Source of the DNA: Collinsella aerofaciens
GTDB lineage: Bacteria; Actinomycetota; Coriobacteriia; Coriobacteriales; Coriobacteriaceae
Assembly (NCBI RefSeq): GCF_018785265.1
Contig: NZ_WQPK01000019.1
Coordinates: 1-64,000 of the forward strand
Direction of reading: 5' to 3'
Length of the DNA stretch: 64,000 nt
Shown piece after piece: positions 527 through 10,808 of this stretch; within the stretch, counting starts at the first letter, position 1, and every line of letters starts with the position of its first letter. The notes beneath the pieces were generated by a model, which was not told the DNA's origin, searched no databases, and saw only the letters and a program-made list of their open reading frames with translations. Position numbers and translations under genes: made by a program.

Positions 527-548
527 AAACCGCCTAAAGGCGGTTTTT
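527..548 (+). terminator. rho-independent terminator-like hairpin
   Basis: AAACCGCC (527-534) pairs with GGCGGTTT (539-546) around a TAAA loop, and the 3' arm merges with a T tract ending at 548. This is a compact 8-bp terminator. What is transcribed into it is not evident; no gene is recognisable between 310 and 527. Confidence 0.65.
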
Positions 549-648
549 GCGTTTAAGGGTTGTTTTCCAGCGGCTTTCGTAGCGGGTATTCATGGTTCGC
601 ATGGACTCTGCTCACATGACTTTTCCCGTAGTGGCGTAATTGATGCAG

Positions 649-695
649 GTCTCCTATCTCTTGCCGTAATATAATTACGGCAAGAGATAGGAGAC
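649..695. promoter_or_regulatory. 47-bp palindrome with TATAAT at its centre and an SD in its right arm
   Basis: Two 22-base arms (649-670 and 674-695) are exactly complementary around a 3-base centre. The centre contains TATAAT (670-675), and the right arm contains AGGAG (689-693) six bases before the ATG at 700. RNA made from upstream would fold the Shine-Dalgarno into a 22-bp stem. RNA started from the central TATAAT would carry only part of the right arm and leave it free. It may also be a repressor site. No good -35 lies 16-18 bases upstream of the TATAAT, so promoter function is inferred. Confidence 0.75.
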
Positions 696-699
696 TCTC

Positions 700-1800
700 A
701 TGCTTAAGCGTTTTACTGTTGATGGCTATAGGAATTTTTCGGCTCCGGTTTCATTTAATTTTGCAGCTTCTCGTGATTACCAGTTTGCAGAAAATAACGT
801 TAAAAACGGAACCGTGAAAACCGCACTTTTGATCGGCAGAAATGCGTCTGGTAAATCGAATTTCGGTTCAGCTTTATTTGACATTACGTTCGGCTTTCCA
901 GAGGCATTCGATTATTCTGACCAGGATGATCGTCTGTTTTTGAATGCTGATTGCGGGCGAGGTACGGCACAGTTCACCTATGTCTTTGAATTTGACGGTC
1001 GCGAAATCAATTACTGCTATGAGAAGACTTCTCCGACTACTTGGCTTCACGAGACCCTATCGATTGATGGGGAACGAATTTTCGATTTCAATAACGCACG
1101 CGGCGTTTTCGAAGAGAACCACCTTGAACGAATCGGTGCTGCTGGCATTAATTTTGAATTCTTCGACGCTTCGTTGAGCCTTCTTTCTTATATAACGAGC
1201 AGTCTTCCAACTAATGTTTTAGGTGTCTTGGCTGAATTACGCCGATTTGTCTCGCACATGAGGCTGATTCGCATGGACAGCTTTCGATTAAAAGGGGTTG
1301 AAACAAAAAAGGTAATCGACAAAATCATACGCGAGAACAAAGTTGCGGAATTTGAATCATTTATTCGCAATTTTGGAGTCGATGAGTCCCTGATCGTTAT
1401 TAAAGAGTCCGACGGCTCGCCTGTTCTATATTTCAATCATCCCATGCGATGCGTCCCGTTTGTCGAGGCATGTTCTAGCGGTACAAGAACCCTGGTTATG
1501 TTGTTCTCTGAGCTTGAGCTAAACGACTCGGCCAGTTTTTTGTTCATAGATGAGTTTGACGCTTTTTGCCACTTTGAGATGGCTGAGAGCCTTTTGAAGT
1601 TCTTTGGTTCCAAGGCCTCTTGTCAGATTTTGTGCTCCACCCACAACACTTCGCTTGTTAAGAATGGCGTAATGAGGCCCGACTGCGTTTATCAAATTTC
1701 TGCAAAAGAGGGTATTCGAACCTTGGCCGATTCCACCGATCGTGAGTTGAGGCTCGGCAACAATATCGAGAAGCTCCTCCGAGCCGGAGAGTTTGAGTAG
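700..1800 (+). CDS. ABC/AAA-type ATPase of a putative defence module
   Basis: A 366-residue ATPase of the RloA/AAA_15/AAA_21 kind. Walker A GRNASGKS lies at residues 46-53. An ABC-signature-like SSGTR, a Walker B run (FLFIDEFDAF) and a switch histidine (STHN) follow in the C-terminal third. There is no membrane segment. The ATG at 700 has AGGAG six bases upstream, inside the palindrome. The next gene starts two bases after the stop, so the pair is one operon. Such ATPases paired with TOPRIM-like proteins act in phage defence (RloAB, PARIS, OLD/Gabija-like systems); the role here is inferred. Codons are visibly AT-richer than in the rest of the window, which suggests horizontal acquisition. 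Confidence 0.75.
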   Translation: MLKRFTVDGYRNFSAPVSFNFAASRDYQFAENNVKNGTVKTALLIGRNASGKSNFGSALFDITFGFPEAFDYSDQDDRLFLNADCGRGTAQFTYVFEFDGREINYCYEKTSPTTWLHETLSIDGERIFDFNNARGVFEENHLERIGAAGINFEFFDASLSLLSYITSSLPTNVLGVLAELRRFVSHMRLIRMDSFRLKGVETKKVIDKIIRENKVAEFESFIRNFGVDESLIVIKESDGSPVLYFNHPMRCVPFVEACSSGTRTLVMLFSELELNDSASFLFIDEFDAFCHFEMAESLLKFFGSKASCQILCSTHNTSLVKNGVMRPDCVYQISAKEGIRTLADSTDRELRLGNNIEKLLRAGEFE

Positions 1801-1802
1801 CC

Positions 1803-2621
1803 ATGAACGGTGCGTCTGAAAAGAACGTCCTGCTCATTGTTGAAGGCGCTAAACGCGAGCCTCAGCTGATGGGGCGTTTATTTGAATCTTTTAGCCTCGC
1901 GGATGATCATCAAATTGTTCCTGTCGAGATCAATGTTCATGTCTTTCTTGATAAGCTCTTTCAAGAGTACGGTTGCGATTTCGAGTCCATTGATCTTAAG
2001 CCCTTTGTCGCTGAGCTTCTTTCGGATAAAGATGATGCGGCTCAGCTTCTCGAATCCAGTTTTACAGACACCTTGCTCATATTTGACTTAGATCCTCAGG
2101 ACAATCGGCTCGATTTTAAACGGCTTGAGCTAATGCAAGACTATTACTGCGATAGCACTGATATGGGTCAGCTATATCTGAGCTATCCATCGGTTGAAGC
2201 ATATCGTGATTTTGATCCCTTGAAGTGTCTCTCTCTGGATGACGCCCTTGTTCCTTCAGATGTGATTTTTGGCAAGCGATCTTACAAGGACTGGGTTGCC
2301 AGGAGGGGAGATTCGCTTGCGGATATTGGGCGTATTGATGGTTTTACATTTGCCTGCATTATTGCCGTCCATGCCCTGAGGTCGCTTTGGTTAACTAATG
2401 AGCAGATGATGCCAATTGCAAACGAGTCTCTGGCTGACTTAGCTGCGACCGTGGCGGGCATCAATCATTCTGAACTTCTGCTCAATGAGATCGAACGTCT
2501 GAACAATGATTCATTTTGCGCATGCTGCACCTGCCTTTTCTTTATTGCGAATTGGCCTAAGCGACTTAACGACGTTATGAACAAGGCGATTAAGAGGGGT
2601 TTGGGTATTCGTTTGTTCTAA
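1803..2621 (+). CDS. TOPRIM-like (RloB/PARIS-B-like) partner of the ATPase
   Basis: A 272-residue protein. It opens with LLIVEGAKREP, where E14 would be the TOPRIM glutamate. The acidic pair of a TOPRIM fold follows in IFDLDPQD (D95, D97), then YPSVEAY around residue 132, resembling the conserved segment of RloB-type proteins. The rest is predicted helical, with no known motif that I can see. It starts two bases after the ATPase stop and shares that gene's AT-rich composition. By analogy it would be the effector nuclease released or controlled by the ATPase. I am confident of the family resemblance, less so of nuclease activity, since the TOPRIM assignment rests on short motifs. Confidence 0.6.
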   Translation: MNGASEKNVLLIVEGAKREPQLMGRLFESFSLADDHQIVPVEINVHVFLDKLFQEYGCDFESIDLKPFVAELLSDKDDAAQLLESSFTDTLLIFDLDPQDNRLDFKRLELMQDYYCDSTDMGQLYLSYPSVEAYRDFDPLKCLSLDDALVPSDVIFGKRSYKDWVARRGDSLADIGRIDGFTFACIIAVHALRSLWLTNEQMMPIANESLADLAATVAGINHSELLLNEIERLNNDSFCACCTCLFFIANWPKRLNDVMNKAIKRGLGIRLF

Positions 2622-2917: not shown

Positions 2918-5900
2918 ATGGAAGTGCTAGTTGTTGGCAACACCGCATATGTTGACGATGACTTTTGCGCCAAGGCGTTCCCCGGGGACCACGTTAAGGT
3001 CGTCGCTGCCGCGGAAGCGCGCCACGATGAGTCGTCGCCTCATGCTTCGTGGAAAGAGCTACTCCAGCACTTGGATCAGGCCTACGAGTTCGACCGCGTG
3101 GTCTATCTATCTAATTACCTTACCCCGCATACCGATACCGTGGGCGATATCGAGCTGCTGCGCTCGGTCTTTCGTACGTGCGCGGGTCGCCGGGTCCAAC
3201 TGCTGTATGTAGCGGGGCCCGCGGGTGCCGAGGGTGCCGCCGATGCCGCGGGGCGAACGGGCAAGGGAATTATCGCCCGCGCAGCCAACGACCTGTGCCG
3301 CTACTACGCTGCTAGCGAGGGCGTTCAGACCAAGATCCTGCGCGTGCCGTTCCTGTATACCGCGTCCGCCGCGCTGGAGGACCCGTTTTTGGTGCCGCTG
3401 TTCGACGCGTGCTCAACTGGATCGGTCGCTCTGCAGGGCGCGCAGGATGCGGCGTTTCCCCTGCTGTGTGCCGAGGAGCTTGCGGTGTTGGTACGCCGTA
3501 TCTTCGACAGCTGGGATGGTAACTTTGAGATGCTCGACGTTGCCGATACCTTCCATCACACGTCAGGTGAAGTTGGCGACGCCCTCAAGGCACTGTTCCC
3601 CGGCCTTGCCGTTGCCTATGGCGATTCTGCCGGCTACGCCCTGCCCGTCAGCGGCGTCGTTCGCGTGCGTTATGGTTGGTTTCAGCGCTACGACCTGCTG
3701 CGCGATCTTTCGACCATTCAAGCGCGTTGGGATGCTGGCCGCGCAAAGAAGGTTAACCCCTTGCGCGCCGCCATCGACCGCATCCAGATGCGCGCGCTGC
3801 CTATTAAATGCCTGGAGACGGGCGTTGCCTGGGTCCTGTTCGAGGTGCTGGAGCATCTGTTCTCCCAATCGGCCCAGCTCAACGTGCTTGATTATCGCCT
3901 GCTCTACGTGGTGCTGATCGGCACGCTGTATGGCTTGGACTTTGGCCTGGTTGCGGCGCTGCTGGCGTCGGTGGGTTTGGCCGCGAGCTACTTTACTCAG
4001 TACGGCTATACCTTCCAGGGCCTGTTCTACGAGCCGTCCAACTGGCTGCCGTTTATTGCGTACTTTGTGGTGGGTGCCGTGTGCGGCTATGTGCAGCTAC
4101 GCAACAGCGAAGCCATTAGGGCGGAGCGCGATCAAAATGAGCTCGTTCGCAACCGCAATACGTTCCTTACGCAGCTCTACCACGACGCGATCGAGGACAA
4201 GCGCGCGTACAGGCGCCAGATCGTGGGTCGCCACGACAGCTTTGGCAAGATCTTTGCCGTGACGCAGGAGCTCGACGTGCTCAACCCACGCGACATCTAT
4301 CGCAAGTGCTGCGAGCTTCTGGGCGAGATTCTCGAGAACGATTTGGTGGCGATCTACCATGTTTCGGGCGGGGCATTTGCACGCCTGGTGGCAGCAAGTC
4401 CCGCGATTGCCGAAGATGCCGCACGCTCGCTCACGCTTGAGCAGCTTGCGCCTCTTTTGGGCGACGGGGGTCGTTCGAGCCTGTGGGTGAATCGCGAGCT
4501 GACGCCGGGGCTTCCCATGTTTGGATACACGATCGAGCGCGACGGGGCACCCGCCGTGTTGATTTTTGTGCGTAGTGCGGCCGAAAACCAAATGACCCTC
4601 TATTATCAAAACCTGTTCCGCATCTTGTGCGGCCTGGTCGAAAGTGCGCTGGGCCGTGCTTTTGACTATGAGGCGGTGGCGCAGGATAAACGCTGCGTTG
4701 ACGGTACTTGCGTGCTCAAGCAGGCTGCCTTTGGCCAAGAGCTCGCGGCGGAGCAAGCGCTGGCAGATAGCAAGATGGGGAGTTTTTTGCTCCTGCGCGT
4801 GGTACCGGGCGTGGAGCCTGTTGGCGAGCTGGTGGGCGCAATTGGGTCGGCAATCCGCGAGAGCGACGCGGCGGGCTTGGTCGACGGCGACGTACTCTAC
4901 CTGCTTATGCGTCAGGCAAAGGCGTGCGATCTGCCCATTATCCGCGAGCGCCTGAGCGCAAAGCATATTGCGGTGGAACCCGTCGACGGCGAGGACATCG
5001 TGGCGTTGTTGCAGCACATCTCTTACACCGGTGACGGTGAGGGGGGGTGCCGCTTGATCTCGCTTGTCGTTGCTGCCGTCTTGCTGCTGATTCATGCGTT
5101 GGTTTGCCTGATGCTGTGGACGCTCATGAAGCTGGGCCTGCTGCCGGTGCGCGGGCACATGCTGGCTGTGATAGTGCTGGTGCCGCTGTGGGGTCCGTTG
5201 CTGGTGGTTCTGCTATCGGTCTGCAGCGCGATGTTTGGCGAGGGGCTGAAAGAGTCTGCGCTGGAGTCGCTGCGCTTCAACGACGACCTGCATCGCAGTA
5301 TGCCGGTACCGAGTGGTGAGGACGATGCAGGCGTAGTGCCGCTCGAGGAGGCGCTCATCGTCAATGACCCGGCATACCGGCGCCGCCTAATGCTCTCCAT
5401 GCTCACCGAGGAGCCCGACGCTTACCTGGCGCAGCTGCAGGTGGCTAAGCTTAACGACGACGTTGAGGTGGCGCACTATGCCGCGACGGCGGTGGCGCAG
5501 ATCTCCAAGGAGTCCGACCTTAAACTGCAGCAGCTGGAGCGTGCCTTTAAGACGGACCCGAGCGCGCAAAACCTCAACGAATACTGCGATTTTCTTGGTG
5601 AATACTTGGGCTCGGGCTTGGCCGAGGGGCGCGTGGCTCAGATTCAGCGCCAACAGTACGCGCGCCTGCTTGCGCGTCGCTGCGAGCGCGAGGATACCCT
5701 TGAGCTGCGCATTCGATACGCGACGGCTCTGGCCGATGTCGGACAGATCGACGAGGCGCAGGCCGTGACCGACCAGCTGGTGCTCGACGTGCCCGACGAG
5801 CAGGAGGTTTGGATGCTTTGCCTGCGCCTGGCCGTGATGCGCCGCGACGGTGACGAAGTCCACCGTGTGATCGATGCGATTGACAAGCAACATGTGTATT

Positions 5901-5959
5901 TGAGCGCCGACAACCGCGAAAAGTTGGCGTTTTGGCGCGACGGGGATGAGGTCCGATGA
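2918..5959 (+). CDS. SDR-PelD-PelE triple fusion, c-di-GMP receptor of a Pel-like system
   Basis: A 1013-residue protein. Residues 1-270 look like an NAD-dependent epimerase/SDR domain (N-terminal MEVLVVGNTAY, later YYAASEG). Membrane segments span about 304-390 and a GAF domain about 444-575. A degenerate GGDEF (about 590-705) reads DGDVL at 656-660, with RESD at 647-650 at the exact spacing of the RxxD c-di-GMP inhibitory site. Two more membrane helices (about 712-775) and a TPR-like tail complete the order PelD then PelE. PelD is the c-di-GMP receptor of Pel polysaccharide synthesis and PelE its membrane partner. The SDR part may supply or modify a UDP-sugar, or may be structural. The start has GGGGAGGA upstream. 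The stop overlaps the next ATG (ATGA). Confidence 0.75.
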   Translation: MEVLVVGNTAYVDDDFCAKAFPGDHVKVVAAAEARHDESSPHASWKELLQHLDQAYEFDRVVYLSNYLTPHTDTVGDIELLRSVFRTCAGRRVQLLYVAGPAGAEGAADAAGRTGKGIIARAANDLCRYYAASEGVQTKILRVPFLYTASAALEDPFLVPLFDACSTGSVALQGAQDAAFPLLCAEELAVLVRRIFDSWDGNFEMLDVADTFHHTSGEVGDALKALFPGLAVAYGDSAGYALPVSGVVRVRYGWFQRYDLLRDLSTIQARWDAGRAKKVNPLRAAIDRIQMRALPIKCLETGVAWVLFEVLEHLFSQSAQLNVLDYRLLYVVLIGTLYGLDFGLVAALLASVGLAASYFTQYGYTFQGLFYEPSNWLPFIAYFVVGAVCGYVQLRNSEAIRAERDQNELVRNRNTFLTQLYHDAIEDKRAYRRQIVGRHDSFGKIFAVTQELDVLNPRDIYRKCCELLGEILENDLVAIYHVSGGAFARLVAASPAIAEDAARSLTLEQLAPLLGDGGRSSLWVNRELTPGLPMFGYTIERDGAPAVLIFVRSAAENQMTLYYQNLFRILCGLVESALGRAFDYEAVAQDKRCVDGTCVLKQAAFGQELAAEQALADSKMGSFLLLRVVPGVEPVGELVGAIGSAIRESDAAGLVDGDVLYLLMRQAKACDLPIIRERLSAKHIAVEPVDGEDIVALLQHISYTGDGEGGCRLISLVVAAVLLLIHALVCLMLWTLMKLGLLPVRGHMLAVIVLVPLWGPLLVVLLSVCSAMFGEGLKESALESLRFNDDLHRSMPVPSGEDDAGVVPLEEALIVNDPAYRRRLMLSMLTEEPDAYLAQLQVAKLNDDVEVAHYAATAVAQISKESDLKLQQLERAFKTDPSAQNLNEYCDFLGEYLGSGLAEGRVAQIQRQQYARLLARRCEREDTLELRIRYATALADVGQIDEAQAVTDQLVLDVPDEQEVWMLCLRLAVMRRDGDEVHRVIDAIDKQHVYLSADNREKLAFWRDGDEVR

Positions 5960-7836
5960 GCGTGGCACAACATATCCGCGACCGTGCAGGCCGCTTTCGT
6001 TGGATGGGGCTCCTCGTGGTGTGGGCGGTCTTTATTGCCATGGCCGCCGTGCTGCTAGTGGAGCGTGCCGGCGTGCAGTACAGTGCGGGCCAGCATAAGC
6101 TGGGGATGCTTGCCGCCAACGATGCGGTGCCGGCCTCCTCGGCAATCTTTGGCCAAAAGCCCACGTGCCTGGTCATTACCGATTCCGATCAAGCTGGCGT
6201 CGAGGACGTAAAGGAACAGTTCGACCAGATTTTGCTGGACATGAAGATCGCGCACCGCGACGTGGACCTTGCCCTGGATGGTGCGGATGCCATTCCCTCG
6301 CTGACCTCCTTCGATCGCGTGATTTTGCTCATGCCGTCGCTCGATGGGCTCGGTACGCACCTGAGCGACATTATGGGTTGGGTGAGTGCCGGCGGTTCTC
6401 TTATGCTCGCCATGCCGCCGGATAACTCGAGCTATCTGCAAGTGATTGCCTCCAAGCTTGGCATTGAATCGGCCGGATATGACTATGTAAAAGCCGAAAG
6501 CATTGTGCCGAGTGAGGACTTTATGCTGGGCGGGGGAGAGCGCTACGAGTTCTCGGATCCCTTCGATTCTTCACTTTCGGTTTCATTGCGCGAAACGGCG
6601 CACGTCTGGGCAAATACCGGTGACGCGGGCACACCGCTCATTTGGTCTAACGATTGCGGCAGTGGTCACACCGTGGCGTGCAACATTGGCATCTACGACA
6701 AGGTCATGCGTGGGTTCTATGCTTCGGCCATAAGCTTGCTGGGTGAAGCCACGGCCTATCCGGTCATCAACAGCGCCGTGTTCTATTTGGACGACTTTCC
6801 CAGCCCTGTGCCCTCGGGCGACGGCACCTACATCAAGCGCGACTACGGGCTTTCCGTCGCCGATTTTTATGCCAAGGTCTGGTGGCCCGATCTGCAAGAG
6901 CTCGCGCAAAAATACGGCATTCGCTATACCGGCGTGATGATCGAAAACTACGAGGACGCGGTCAACCAGACCGAGCCTGCGCGCCAGGCCGATACCACGC
7001 AGTTTCGCTACTTTGGCGGCATGCTGCTGCAGATGGGCGGAGAGCTGGGCTTTCACGGCTACAACCATCAGCCGCTGGCGCTCTGGGACACCGACTACGG
7101 TACGCTGTACGACTACAAGACGTGGAAGAACAAAGAGACGCTCGTCGCTTCGCTCAACGAACTTATCGCGTTTCAGGACGAGGTCCTGCCCAATGCTCAT
7201 GGCTCGGTTTACGTGCCGCCGTCGAATATCCTTTCGGCCCGCGCGCGCAAGCTTATCGGTACCGATGTTCCGCGCATTAAGACCATTGCCAGTACGTATT
7301 TTGAGGATGGCACCGACCTGCCGTACGTGCAGGAGTTTGGCGTGGCGAGCGATGGCATTGTGGAGCAGCCACGTATTGTTTCGGGCGGCATGGTCGACGA
7401 TTCCTATATGCGCCTGGCAGCCGTGTCCGAGCTCAACATGCACTACGTGAGCACTCACTTTATGCACCCGGACGACCTGCTCGATCCCGATCGCGGCGCC
7501 AAGGAGGGCTGGGAAGTCTACAAGGGCGGCCTGGTCGACTACCTGGACTGGCTTACCAAGTCTGCGCCCGACCTGCGCCGCCAGACGGCGTCGGAGTGCT
7601 CCGGTGCCATCCAGCGCTTTTCGTCGGTTACGGTGAGCGTGGATACCAGTGCGGATGCCTGGACGCTCAGCCTGGGCAATTTCCACGACGAGGCGTGGTT
7701 CATGTTCCGCGCCAATAATGGCGAGCCGGGTGCGGTGACGGGTGGCGAACTGACGCACCTTACGGGCAATCTGTATCTGCTCAAGGCAAATGATAAGACC
7801 CTGACGATCGAGCGCAAGGAGGGTGGCGACAGATGA
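5956..7836 (+). CDS. DUF2194 polysaccharide deacetylase (PelA-like)
   Basis: A 626-residue membrane-anchored protein with one N-terminal helix (about residues 16-37). A Rossmann/amidotransferase-like segment (about 70-200) is followed by a deacetylase-like domain. That domain has YLDDFPSP (D279, D280) and FHGYNH (H367, H371): an aspartate and an HxxxH pair, the metal-binding pattern of PelA-type deacetylases. It probably de-N-acetylates the polymer outside the membrane. No glycoside hydrolase domain like that of Pseudomonas PelA is evident here or in a neighbouring gene. Four-base overlaps with both neighbours indicate translational coupling. Confidence 0.75.
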   Translation: MSVAQHIRDRAGRFRWMGLLVVWAVFIAMAAVLLVERAGVQYSAGQHKLGMLAANDAVPASSAIFGQKPTCLVITDSDQAGVEDVKEQFDQILLDMKIAHRDVDLALDGADAIPSLTSFDRVILLMPSLDGLGTHLSDIMGWVSAGGSLMLAMPPDNSSYLQVIASKLGIESAGYDYVKAESIVPSEDFMLGGGERYEFSDPFDSSLSVSLRETAHVWANTGDAGTPLIWSNDCGSGHTVACNIGIYDKVMRGFYASAISLLGEATAYPVINSAVFYLDDFPSPVPSGDGTYIKRDYGLSVADFYAKVWWPDLQELAQKYGIRYTGVMIENYEDAVNQTEPARQADTTQFRYFGGMLLQMGGELGFHGYNHQPLALWDTDYGTLYDYKTWKNKETLVASLNELIAFQDEVLPNAHGSVYVPPSNILSARARKLIGTDVPRIKTIASTYFEDGTDLPYVQEFGVASDGIVEQPRIVSGGMVDDSYMRLAAVSELNMHYVSTHFMHPDDLLDPDRGAKEGWEVYKGGLVDYLDWLTKSAPDLRRQTASECSGAIQRFSSVTVSVDTSADAWTLSLGNFHDEAWFMFRANNGEPGAVTGGELTHLTGNLYLLKANDKTLTIERKEGGDR

Positions 7837-9260
7837 GAATCTGCCTGGTACTCGAGGGTTGCTACCCCTATGTGCACGGCGGCGTATCTACCTGGATGCA
7901 TGGCTATATCCAGGCCATGCCCGAGCACGAGTTTGTGCTGTGGGTGATTGGCGCGCATGCTGCCGACCGCGGCAAATTTGTCTACGAGCTGCCCAGCAAC
8001 GTGGTCGAGGTGCACGAGGTGTTCCTGGACGATGCCCTGCGGCTTTCGGGCGAGCAACATGAAGCCAGTTTTAACGACCGCGAGCGCGAGGCGCTACGCC
8101 GCCTGGTGTCGCTCTCCAATCCGGACTGGGACGTGCTGTTCGATATCTTCCACCGCCGCCGCGTGCATCCGCTCTCGTTTTTGCAGAGCCGCACGTTTAT
8201 GGATATCTTCCGCGACGTGTGCCTTGCCGAGTACCCCTACACGCCCTTTGCCGACGCATTCCACACCATGCGCTCTATGCTGTTGCCGGTGCTCTACCTG
8301 CTGGGCAGCGAGGTGCCGGTTGCCGATGTGTACCACGCTATCTCGACCGGCTACGGCGGCCTGCTCGCTTGCCTGGGCTCAAGCGTTCACCATGCGCCGG
8401 TGCTGCTGACCGAGCATGGCATCTATACCCGCGAGCGCGAGGAAGAGATCATTCGCGCCGACTGGGTGGTGCCGTCGTTTAAGGACCGCTGGATCCGCTT
8501 TTTCTACCTGCTTTCGGAGGAGATCTACAGCCGCGCCTTCCGTGTGACGAGTTTGTTCCATAACGCCCGCAAGACGCAGATCGATATGGGCTGCGATGCG
8601 GGTAAATGCCTAGTCATCCCTAACGGCATCCAGTTCGACCGCTTTAAGGATATTCCTTTAAAGCCCGATGACGGCTGGGTGGACATTGGCGCGGTGGTGC
8701 GCCTGGCTCCCATCAAGGACGTCAAGACTATGATCTATGCCTTCTTTGAGCTGCACGAGCGCCTGCCTAAGGTGCGTCTGCACATCATGGGCGGCGTGGA
8801 CGACGAAGAGTACGGCGCCGAGTGCCACGCGCTGGTCGATACCCTGGGCGTGCGCGACCTGATCTTTACCGGTCGCGTCAACGTGGTCGAGTACATGGAA
8901 AAGCTCGACTTTACCATTTTGACGAGCATCTCCGAGGGCCAGCCGCTCAGCGTGCTGGAGTCGCTTGCAGCGCGCCGTCCCTGCGTGACGACCGAGGTGG
9001 GCTGCTGCCGCGAGCTACTCGAAGGCGCCCCGGGCGACGACTTTGGCGTGGCGGGTTTTGTGACGCCGCCCATGTATCGCAAGGGCTTGGCCGATGCCAT
9101 GGAGCGCATGTGCGTGAGCCGTGCCCGTCGCATTGAGATGGGGGAGCGCGGGCAGCGTCGAGTTGCCACGTACTTTTTGCACGAGCAGATGCTCGCCAAC
9201 TATCGCGCGCTGTACGACGAGACGGCGCGTGCGTTTAACCTGCCCAGAGAGGGGGAGTAG
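7833..9260 (+). CDS. pelF: PelF-like GT4 glycosyltransferase
   Basis: A 475-residue cytoplasmic glycosyltransferase. The N-terminus (LVLEGCYPYVHGGVSTW) is the hallmark of the PelF/DUF3492 family. The GT4 EX7E nucleotide-sugar motif appears as SEGQPLSVLES near residue 370. PelF polymerises UDP-sugars into the Pel chain and works with PelG and the PelD/PelE platform at the inner face of the membrane. It starts inside the stop of the deacetylase gene (ATGA), and pelG follows three bases after its stop. Confidence 0.88.
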   Translation: MRICLVLEGCYPYVHGGVSTWMHGYIQAMPEHEFVLWVIGAHAADRGKFVYELPSNVVEVHEVFLDDALRLSGEQHEASFNDREREALRRLVSLSNPDWDVLFDIFHRRRVHPLSFLQSRTFMDIFRDVCLAEYPYTPFADAFHTMRSMLLPVLYLLGSEVPVADVYHAISTGYGGLLACLGSSVHHAPVLLTEHGIYTREREEEIIRADWVVPSFKDRWIRFFYLLSEEIYSRAFRVTSLFHNARKTQIDMGCDAGKCLVIPNGIQFDRFKDIPLKPDDGWVDIGAVVRLAPIKDVKTMIYAFFELHERLPKVRLHIMGGVDDEEYGAECHALVDTLGVRDLIFTGRVNVVEYMEKLDFTILTSISEGQPLSVLESLAARRPCVTTEVGCCRELLEGAPGDDFGVAGFVTPPMYRKGLADAMERMCVSRARRIEMGERGQRRVATYFLHEQMLANYRALYDETARAFNLPREGE

Positions 9261-9263
9261 CCG

Positions 9264-10808
9264 GTGGCCGGAATTGGTTTTGAGCTCAAGCGCCTGTTTA
9301 GGCGCAAAGGCCTGTTTGCCACGATGCGCGCTTACGGCTACGCCGGCATTGTGTGCACGGGCCCCATGCTGTTGGGCGTGCTACTCCAGGTGGGTATCTT
9401 GGTGCTGTGCGGTCTGTGGGGCGTGGGGCGCGCCAACCAGGACCTGCTGGTGTGCATGGTGACCTATACGCTGCTGGCGTCGCTCACGCTCACGAGCTTT
9501 TTCTCTATGCCGGTCACGCGTTTTTTGGCCGATATGCTCTTTGCCGAGCGCGAGGATGAGATCCTACCTTCGTTTTGGGGCTCCAACGCCATCATGCTCG
9601 TTGCGGGCACGGTGCTCTACGGCGTCTTTTTGCTGTTCTCGGGCGCCACGCTGCTGCAGGGGCTGCTGTGCCTGTGGCTGTTCAACATTATGATCGTCAA
9701 CTGGAACGGCATGAGTTACCTCACGGCCATCAAGGATTACCGCGGCGTCCTGTGCAGCTTTGCGGCTGCCATTGGCGTGGCGTGCCTGTGCGCCCTGGCC
9801 GCGCTGGCGCTGGGACTGCCGCCGGTCGAGGGCCTGTTGGCGTCAATTGCTCTGGGCTACGGCGTCATGCTCGCCTGGGACGTGGTGCTGCTGTACCGGT
9901 ATTTTCCTCAGAGCGACCGCAGCCCCTGGCCCTTTTTGCGGTGGCTCGATCAGTTTATGCCGCTGGCGCTCACGGGTCTGTTAACCAATCTGGGACTCTT
10001 TGCGCACCTGGTGATTATTTGGACCGGTCCCATTGGCGTGCAGGTCAAGGGCTTCTTTTATGGTGCGCCCTACTACGATGTGCCGGCGCTCATCGCGTTT
10101 TTGACCATCCTGGTCACGACCGTCAACTTTGTGGTCTCGGTCGAGGTCAACTTCTATCCGCGCTACCGCGACTACTACAGCCTGTTCAACGACGGCGGCG
10201 TGGTGGGCGACATTGTGGTGGCCGAGGAGGAGATGCTCTCCACGCTCAACAGCGAACTGCGCTTTTGCGCGCTCAAGCAGCTGTTTGTGACCGCTGCGGT
10301 CATTTCGCTCGAGACCACGGTGCTCTCGGCCCTGCCGCTGGGCTTTAACAACCTTATGCACGGGTATTTTCGCACGCTGTGCGTGGGCTATGGCTTGTAT
10401 GCCGTGGGCAATACGGTGATGCTCATCTTGCTGTACTTTACCGACTACAAGGGAGCCGTGCTGGCTTCGGGCCTGTTTGGCGGTGTGGCCGGGCTGGCGA
10501 CTGCCGTGTCGTTGCTTTTGCCGCAGCAGTTTTACGGCTTTGGCTTTTTGTTGGGTGCGGCGGTGTTTTTTATCGTGGCGCTGCTGCGGCTCGATACCTA
10601 TACCGCCAACTTGCCGTATCGTATCCTGAGCCAGCAGCCTATTGTGGCGACCGACAAATCGGGCTGGTTTACCGAACTTGGCCGGGTGCTCGACCGTGTT
10701 GAGCAATGCTACGAGGACAAGCGCGCGGGCGGTGAGCCGCGCAGTGCGTTTGAACGTATGGTGGTTCGCCTGTACCAAAAACATTGGGGAGGTTCTGATG
10801 ATCGATAA
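9264..10808 (+). CDS. pelG: PelG-like polysaccharide transporter
   Basis: A 514-residue polytopic membrane protein with about twelve hydrophobic segments. Its N-terminus (MAGIGFELKRLF) is typical of PelG, the MOP/Wzx-like flippase-type transporter of Pel systems. The GTG start has GGGGGAG just upstream. The C-terminus is cytoplasmic and hydrophilic. It would export the chain made by PelF. The last 11 bases overlap the start of the CotH gene. Confidence 0.85.
   Translation: MAGIGFELKRLFRRKGLFATMRAYGYAGIVCTGPMLLGVLLQVGILVLCGLWGVGRANQDLLVCMVTYTLLASLTLTSFFSMPVTRFLADMLFAEREDEILPSFWGSNAIMLVAGTVLYGVFLLFSGATLLQGLLCLWLFNIMIVNWNGMSYLTAIKDYRGVLCSFAAAIGVACLCALAALALGLPPVEGLLASIALGYGVMLAWDVVLLYRYFPQSDRSPWPFLRWLDQFMPLALTGLLTNLGLFAHLVIIWTGPIGVQVKGFFYGAPYYDVPALIAFLTILVTTVNFVVSVEVNFYPRYRDYYSLFNDGGVVGDIVVAEEEMLSTLNSELRFCALKQLFVTAAVISLETTVLSALPLGFNNLMHGYFRTLCVGYGLYAVGNTVMLILLYFTDYKGAVLASGLFGGVAGLATAVSLLLPQQFYGFGFLLGAAVFFIVALLRLDTYTANLPYRILSQQPIVATDKSGWFTELGRVLDRVEQCYEDKRAGGEPRSAFERMVVRLYQKHWGGSDDR

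Follow-up and report, generated by a model that had tools for sequence, protein, structure and literature searches.

We analysed a 64,000-nucleotide stretch of Collinsella aerofaciens DNA (the window), which carries a two-gene module preceded by a long palindrome. The features of the locus and of the genes that follow it are listed below.

527-551, plus strand: terminator-like hairpin (AAACCGCCT-AA-AGGCGGTTT) and T run, from the sequence and a repeat search
575-648, plus strand: upstream stretch common to four Collinsella-group copies, whose more distal flanks mostly differ
649-695, no strand: perfect palindrome of 47 bp with 22-bp arms and loop ATA, kept in three congeners
655-660, plus strand: TATCTC, a weak -10-like hexamer 3 bp upstream of the core, tentatively assigned by inspection
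664-680, no strand: candidate operator core CCGTAATATAATTACGG, a 17-bp cross-phylum element, the only exact match in its own genome
670-675, plus strand: TATAAT at the palindrome centre, with no -35, conserved solely in close relatives
689-692, plus strand: GGAG, Shine-Dalgarno-like by sequence, inside the right arm and buried in the predicted read-through RNA fold
700-1800, plus strand: PDC-M12A, 366 aa, ABC-ATPase head (AAA_21; AbiLi/AriA/PtuA-like), from profiles and predicted fold
1803-2621, plus strand: PDC-M12B, 272 aa, RloB/Toprim-like putative effector with EG, FDxD and YPxxE motifs, from profiles and alignment
2918-10808: Pel-like exopolysaccharide operon (DUF4118/TPR protein, DUF2194 protein, DUF3492 glycosyltransferase and PelG exporter), then a CotH kinase-like gene

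The first protein of the module, M12A, matches the PADLOC profile PDLC04426 over residues 1-366 (E 3.5e-89, profile search) and scores 64.9 bits against PF13304 (cut-off 27), in keeping with the AAA_15/AAA_21 ATPase of PARIS. Its AlphaFold model (pLDDT 90) is a head of the Rad50/SMC/PtuA/AriA type, with VIA Z values of 16-19 to PtuA, retron ATPases, Rad50 and AriA. Neither Pfam nor the predicted fold, which consists of the ABC head alone, shows a helix-turn-helix. The second gene begins 2 bases past the M12A stop codon and its product, M12B, matches PADLOC profile PDLC04430 (E 3.7e-27). The AlphaFold model of M12B (pLDDT 80) has weak best matches that include the OLD C-terminal region (Z 4.5) and AriB (Z 4.0), and Foldseek returned nothing below E 0.001. 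As regards the Glu and DxD motifs typical of Toprim nucleases, E14 and D95 are invariant in the M12B alignment and D97 is nearly so; the EG, FD and YP..E motifs are invariant too. The matches to the PDC-M12A and PDC-M12B profiles bear out a preliminary description of this DNA, which had assigned the two genes to a defence module.

Both proteins match the PDC-M12 profiles along much of their length. PDC-M12 is a candidate defence system that PADLOC defines by proteins only, and our literature searches found no paper naming it. As in AbiL (AbiLi and the RloB/Toprim protein AbiLii) and PARIS (AriA and AriB), an ABC ATPase is followed by a Toprim-family partner, and all aligned M12A proteins match the AbiLi and AriA profiles. 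The AbiLi profile PDLC02335 matches 43 of 43 M12A proteins, the match of the window protein (E 3.4e-35) being weaker than its PDC-M12A match. The partner proteins differ: PARIS has a DUF4435 partner (PMC9122126), whereas DUF4435 matched neither the window's M12B nor any of 49 M12B proteins (E 0.01), and the AbiLii profile PDLC02337 matches few of them (3/49), the window's M12B not included. The Pfam RloB family matches 9 of the 49. As judged from these profiles, the module is an AbiL/PARIS-like ATPase-effector pair. The consulted portions of the AbiL and PARIS literature describe no operator, whereas the M12 module has a conserved candidate, set out below.

M12B is presumably toxic, and toxicity in E. 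coli is reported for an AbiLii of Fusobacterium (PMC3985639). At 13 loci M12A is intact and M12B is lost or truncated, and nearly all of these loci keep the core. At L044, L068, L069, L081 and L103, M12B carries apparently independent internal deletions with both ends kept and M12A intact, the pattern expected if a toxin-antitoxin-like pair sheds an effector that is costly to keep. A 71-aa remnant of an M12A C-terminus in a congener (48% identical; L009, G037:C1:2280581-2280781) is a probable relic of a lost module. Module and operator were also found aboard Vibrio filamentous phages of ~10 kb (L040, PQ189355.1), and the module with a degenerate operator takes up almost half the length of mobilisable E. 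coli plasmids of 4.4 kb (L035, NZ_CP123265.1).

The palindrome upstream of M12A is composed of a left arm (649-670) and a right arm (674-695) of 22 nt each, 100% complementary and separated by a 3-nt spacer, and the M12A ATG at 700 lies downstream of its end at 695. It is real and far above chance expectation. The coordinates agree with the preliminary description, which had reported a 47-bp palindrome with TATAAT at its centre and the Shine-Dalgarno sequence in the right arm of a 22-bp stem. A genome search found the palindrome in single copy in its own 2.25-Mb genome. The same description had suggested looking for the palindrome before homologous gene pairs, and there it recurs: it lies upstream of M12A in three congeners whose proteins are 92-94% identical, two of them with the same palindrome as the window and the third (G011) with one lengthened by compensating changes. 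It is kept in these congeners while their flanks beyond ~130 bp upstream are mostly unlike. A 39%-identical homologue within the genus is preceded by a different, equally perfect palindrome, which has only the middle in common with that of the window.

The promoter of the module presumably sits within the shared stretch at 575-648, and the hairpin and T run at 527-551 would limit read-through into the module in this genome. The central TATAAT had been taken for the module's own promoter, a proposal that was not supported: the palindrome centre varies, only four close relatives have TATAAT, and it pairs with no -35. Because of the missing -35 and the lack of conservation beyond close relatives, TATAAT is probably not a promoter element. 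The promoter scan found no -35 in range of 670-675, for which reason a sigma-70 promoter at this position was rejected; the sole scan match lies far upstream, at 450-478. The TATCTC hexamer at 655-660 was not picked up by the scan.

The biological unit of the palindrome is smaller than 47 bp. The middle shared by homologues is a 17-bp core, an inverted repeat, CCGTA-N7(A/T)-TACGG, with a centre that is usually A7- or T7-like. The homologue search was widened to plasmids, phages, 84,980 species genomes and viral contigs, and the sample comprised 105 distinct M12A upstream regions from at least eight bacterial phyla. The core is exact in 67 of these regions and has one mismatch in 17 and two mismatches in 8; with at most one mismatch it is present in 84 of 105, compared to 0.4% of shuffled upstream sequences. 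Within the same loci, 89 core matches were found in 22 kb of upstream sequence and 18 in 659 kb elsewhere, and core density in the 200 bp upstream of M12A is ~150-fold higher than elsewhere. A clear site is missing from ~12% of the upstream regions (e.g., L106, L107, and L082), and several loci scored as core-less carry an altered form of the same symmetry. The core of Streptococcus suis, GTGTAAAAAAATTACAC, is compensated, with changes on both sides, and is unique in that genome.

Bacterial carriers of the core belong to Actinomycetota, Bacillota, Bacteroidota, Pseudomonadota, Campylobacterota, Fusobacteriota, Bdellovibrionota and Delongbacteria. It was also found in one archaeal MAG, in Acinetobacter and Pectobacterium plasmids, in Vibrio filamentous phages and, in degenerate form, in E. 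coli plasmids. None of 15 remote viral ATPases (~22-35% identity over the best segment) has a core at two or fewer mismatches, and a first viral scan with a single protein query found no relative. Among 20 additional genomes with M12, the A/T-centred core is almost exclusively located at M12A; extra core matches are mostly random-centred, and a reversed control pattern was overall no rarer. Since the A/T-centred form is almost confined to M12A upstream regions, we regard the core as a module-specific element, and a host regulon was ruled out. Literature searches found no description of this conserved site upstream of PDC-M12. Two database labels call for comment. On a 4527-bp scaffold labelled Marinifilum (L119, NZ_RZNH01000072.1) the M12A upstream region is nearly that of Raoultella plasmid p23_F (L036), and the scaffold is probably a contaminant contig. 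A record labelled as a Fusobacterium vincentii plasmid (L034, NZ_CP084075.1) is chromosome-sized, at 2.1 Mb.

The spacing between the core and predicted promoters is fixed inside lineages and varies among them, from ~-51 to +2..+18. For Bacillota, 28 sites have TTGAxx 6 bp after the core (centre ~-51), and TTGAxx is mostly followed after 17 bp by a -10 of the TATAAT/TATACT type. In Bacteroidota, TAnnTTTG lies mostly 17-19 bp past the core, which is centred at ~-39 and replaces the -33 element, and in Proteobacteria the core is upstream of extended -10 hexamers. Streptococcus suis has TTGACA-17-TATGAT and then the core at ~+2..+18. Hexamers better than the TATCTC of the window (TATACT, TATCAT, TATCCT) are present in G004, L195, L196 and L198, with 2 bp between hexamer and core, and in several Coriobacteriia transcription would start inside the core from a -10-like hexamer at that distance. 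L194 has a tandem pair of cores at ~-93 and ~-71 relative to the start of M12A, with centres 22 bp apart. Many sites are not transcribed from their own promoter, and the core is therefore a DNA site first. The site, its conservation and module specificity, the promoter spacing within lineages and the compensatory changes can all be read from the sequences.

The long arms of the window palindrome require a separate account. Long arms were defined as at least 8 of 10 flanking pairs, which swapped arms reach in 0.3%, and they occur in 8 of 89 sites, most sites having arms of just 5-8 bp. Across all 74 unique sites, arm symmetry beyond the core is in weak excess over shuffling, so long arms are not family-wide. 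In nine long-arm sequences, which were selected for being palindromic, 94% of cells pair, 14 of 20 pairs are changed on both sides, double-compensated cells number 53 against 17 expected, and the covariation score is above every shuffle. In these sequences the covariation shows symmetry that is kept or regenerated while the sequence changes, which does not imply an RNA function. The arms, as opposed to the core, may have a mutational origin, in which a short operator hairpin nucleates template switching during replication so that arms are perfected and lengthened without selection on any RNA or DNA role of their outer parts. Arm sequences that are unrelated between lineages and nearly perfect in symmetry agree with such an origin, as do the long arms of L115 and L136, which are located far ahead of the gene and probably lie outside the transcript. 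It does not explain by itself the near-identical palindrome in congeners, nor the concentration of long arms near the start codon (6 of 12 sites within 45 nt vs. 2 of 77 others, Fisher p 4e-5), an association that is not independent, since a single class, the Coriobacteriia, supplies five of these six long-arm sites. We consider an unselected origin of the arms possible but lean against it; it is compatible with the operator model.

A second alternative is that of the preliminary description, in which the palindrome acts in the RNA: a hairpin hides the Shine-Dalgarno sequence in read-through mRNA, and only transcripts started inside the palindrome are translated. Fold prediction supports this for the window, with a read-through RNA of -42.4 kcal/mol (z = -10), whereas RNA from 667 or 673, which lacks the left arm, is weakly structured (-8.2 kcal/mol, z ~-0.5) and no better than shuffled sequence. 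In G004 the CCTCC/GGAGG pairing is preserved with wholly different arms, and the enrichment of long arms near the start codon and the changes on both sides of pairs also count in its favour. As a general feature the proposal is not supported. Long arms are limited to few sites, the TATAAT promoter is not conserved, and most Bacillota cores are upstream of the -35 and untranscribed; L115 and L136 have their long arms away from the gene, and the near-start examples come largely from one class. The comparison to RNA thermometer or riboswitch-like control is similarly divided: the Shine-Dalgarno sequence is paired and compensated in the window group and in G004, but lies outside the arms in G052, G257, G232 and L049. 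Burial of the ribosome site is thus physically sound for read-through RNA and applies to few lineages. An RNA switch as the primary function of the palindrome is doubtful, and a two-state RNA as a second layer in the lineage of the window is possible.

The range of core positions from -51 to +18, as placed on predicted promoters, would suit a repressor better than an activator, and repression fits best because one site type also overlies the transcription start. The symmetry of the palindrome had been noted earlier as suiting a repressor, and with a 17-bp core conserved across phyla this reading is favoured. In Bacillota the site lies upstream of complete -35 and -10 elements, an unusual location for a simple repressor. 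Outside Bacillota, moreover, the core takes over the -35/-33 position, which could suit an activator: in Bacteroidota and Proteobacteria it fills this region beside TAnnTTTG or an extended -10, and core centres at ~-38/-39 or -51 would allow a module or host protein to aid RNA polymerase at promoters without a good -35. Against activation, the Bacillota promoters have both elements complete, and in S. suis and probably in Coriobacteriia the core is at or downstream of the transcription start, from where activators do not normally act. A host activator is further disfavoured by the single genomic site. Activation is therefore the less attractive choice, and we judge it unlikely.

That a mobile element ends or inserts at the core (a transposon end or recombinase site) is very improbable: the module is found in unlike contexts, including plasmids and filamentous phages, but there is no second core copy at its 3' end, the spacing to promoter elements is fixed, and in the Collinsella group ~100 bp upstream of the palindrome travels with the module. 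A type III toxin-antitoxin RNA was ruled out, as there is no partner repeat and many sites are upstream of the -35. Titration of the binder by phages was not supported, despite the occurrence of CCGTAAAAAAATTACGG at 69 viral places versus 3 for one control pattern, itself depleted by in-frame stops; the other core centre gave 12 versus 15. Many of the CCGTAAAAAAATTACGG matches have coding-like (Arg-Lys-Lys reading) or terminator-like flanks, and only five precede M12A.

Taken with its promoter positions, the core is a candidate operator of PDC-M12, and we think it probable, with some reserve, that M12A binds it and represses its own operon. The 17-bp core at 664-680 would then be the functional unit and a property of the module itself, and its binder would be a product of the module, with a symmetric dimer or oligomer of M12A as the likeliest form. 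Bound M12A would lower transcription of its own operon and hold the presumably toxic M12B low until infection, and titration or a conformational change of M12A would lead to derepression. In the lineage of the window, where the operator is near the start codon, the flanks would have grown into a perfect palindrome of 22-28 bp, and a transcript reading through from upstream may fold and bury the ribosome site, which a transcript started in the core could not do. The existence of the operator and its module specificity are much more certain than its binder or the sign of regulation; the binder, repression rather than activation, and an effect of the hairpin on translation are what we infer from the pattern.

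M12A and M12B are everything that the loci have in common, and if the binder is encoded by the module it is probably M12A, which is favoured because the core persists where M12B is lost or truncated. If M12B was lost only recently at these loci, the core may have stayed in place passively. Without a recognisable helix-turn-helix in M12A, DNA would have to be read by the ABC head, or else the assignment of M12A as binder is wrong; to our knowledge, sequence-specific DNA binding by an ABC head of this type is not established. The closest worked example of autogenous repression is AbiE, an abortive-infection operon that likewise has two genes and is preceded by a long inverted repeat; there the antitoxin AbiEi represses its own operon via inverted repeats ahead of it (PMC3985639). 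AbiEi binds by a winged helix-turn-helix, whereas M12A has none that is recognisable, and the AbiE repeats are of other sequence with exact arms much wider spaced. With autorepressing toxin-antitoxin-like operons in general the M12 module shares a conserved, operon-specific inverted repeat at the promoter. In PARIS, AriA holds AriB in an inactive state that ends when Ocr, a DNA mimic, binds (PMC12409363, PMC12409349). Because this relative of M12A is triggered by DNA-mimicking Ocr, operator DNA and phage DNA mimics may compete for one surface of M12A, so that derepression and activation would be the same event. M12A would then be sensor, toxin-holder and repressor in one, an ABC-ATPase reading a 17-bp operator without a helix-turn-helix, which we offer as a tentative idea. 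Against the model of autogenous repression by M12A we counted that a Fusobacterium AbiLi failed to neutralise its AbiLii in one test (PMC3985639).

The finding is broader than first stated, namely a cross-phylum operator of PDC-M12 that is elaborated into a long palindrome in this lineage. Operators normally drift along with their regulators, and it is unusual for a single operator sequence to accompany a mobile defence module through many phyla and on differing promoter types. The operator offers a handle on the silencing of ABC-ATPase/Toprim defence modules, a DNA signature for locating them, and a testable route to the question whether the ATPase itself may be both repressor and phage sensor.
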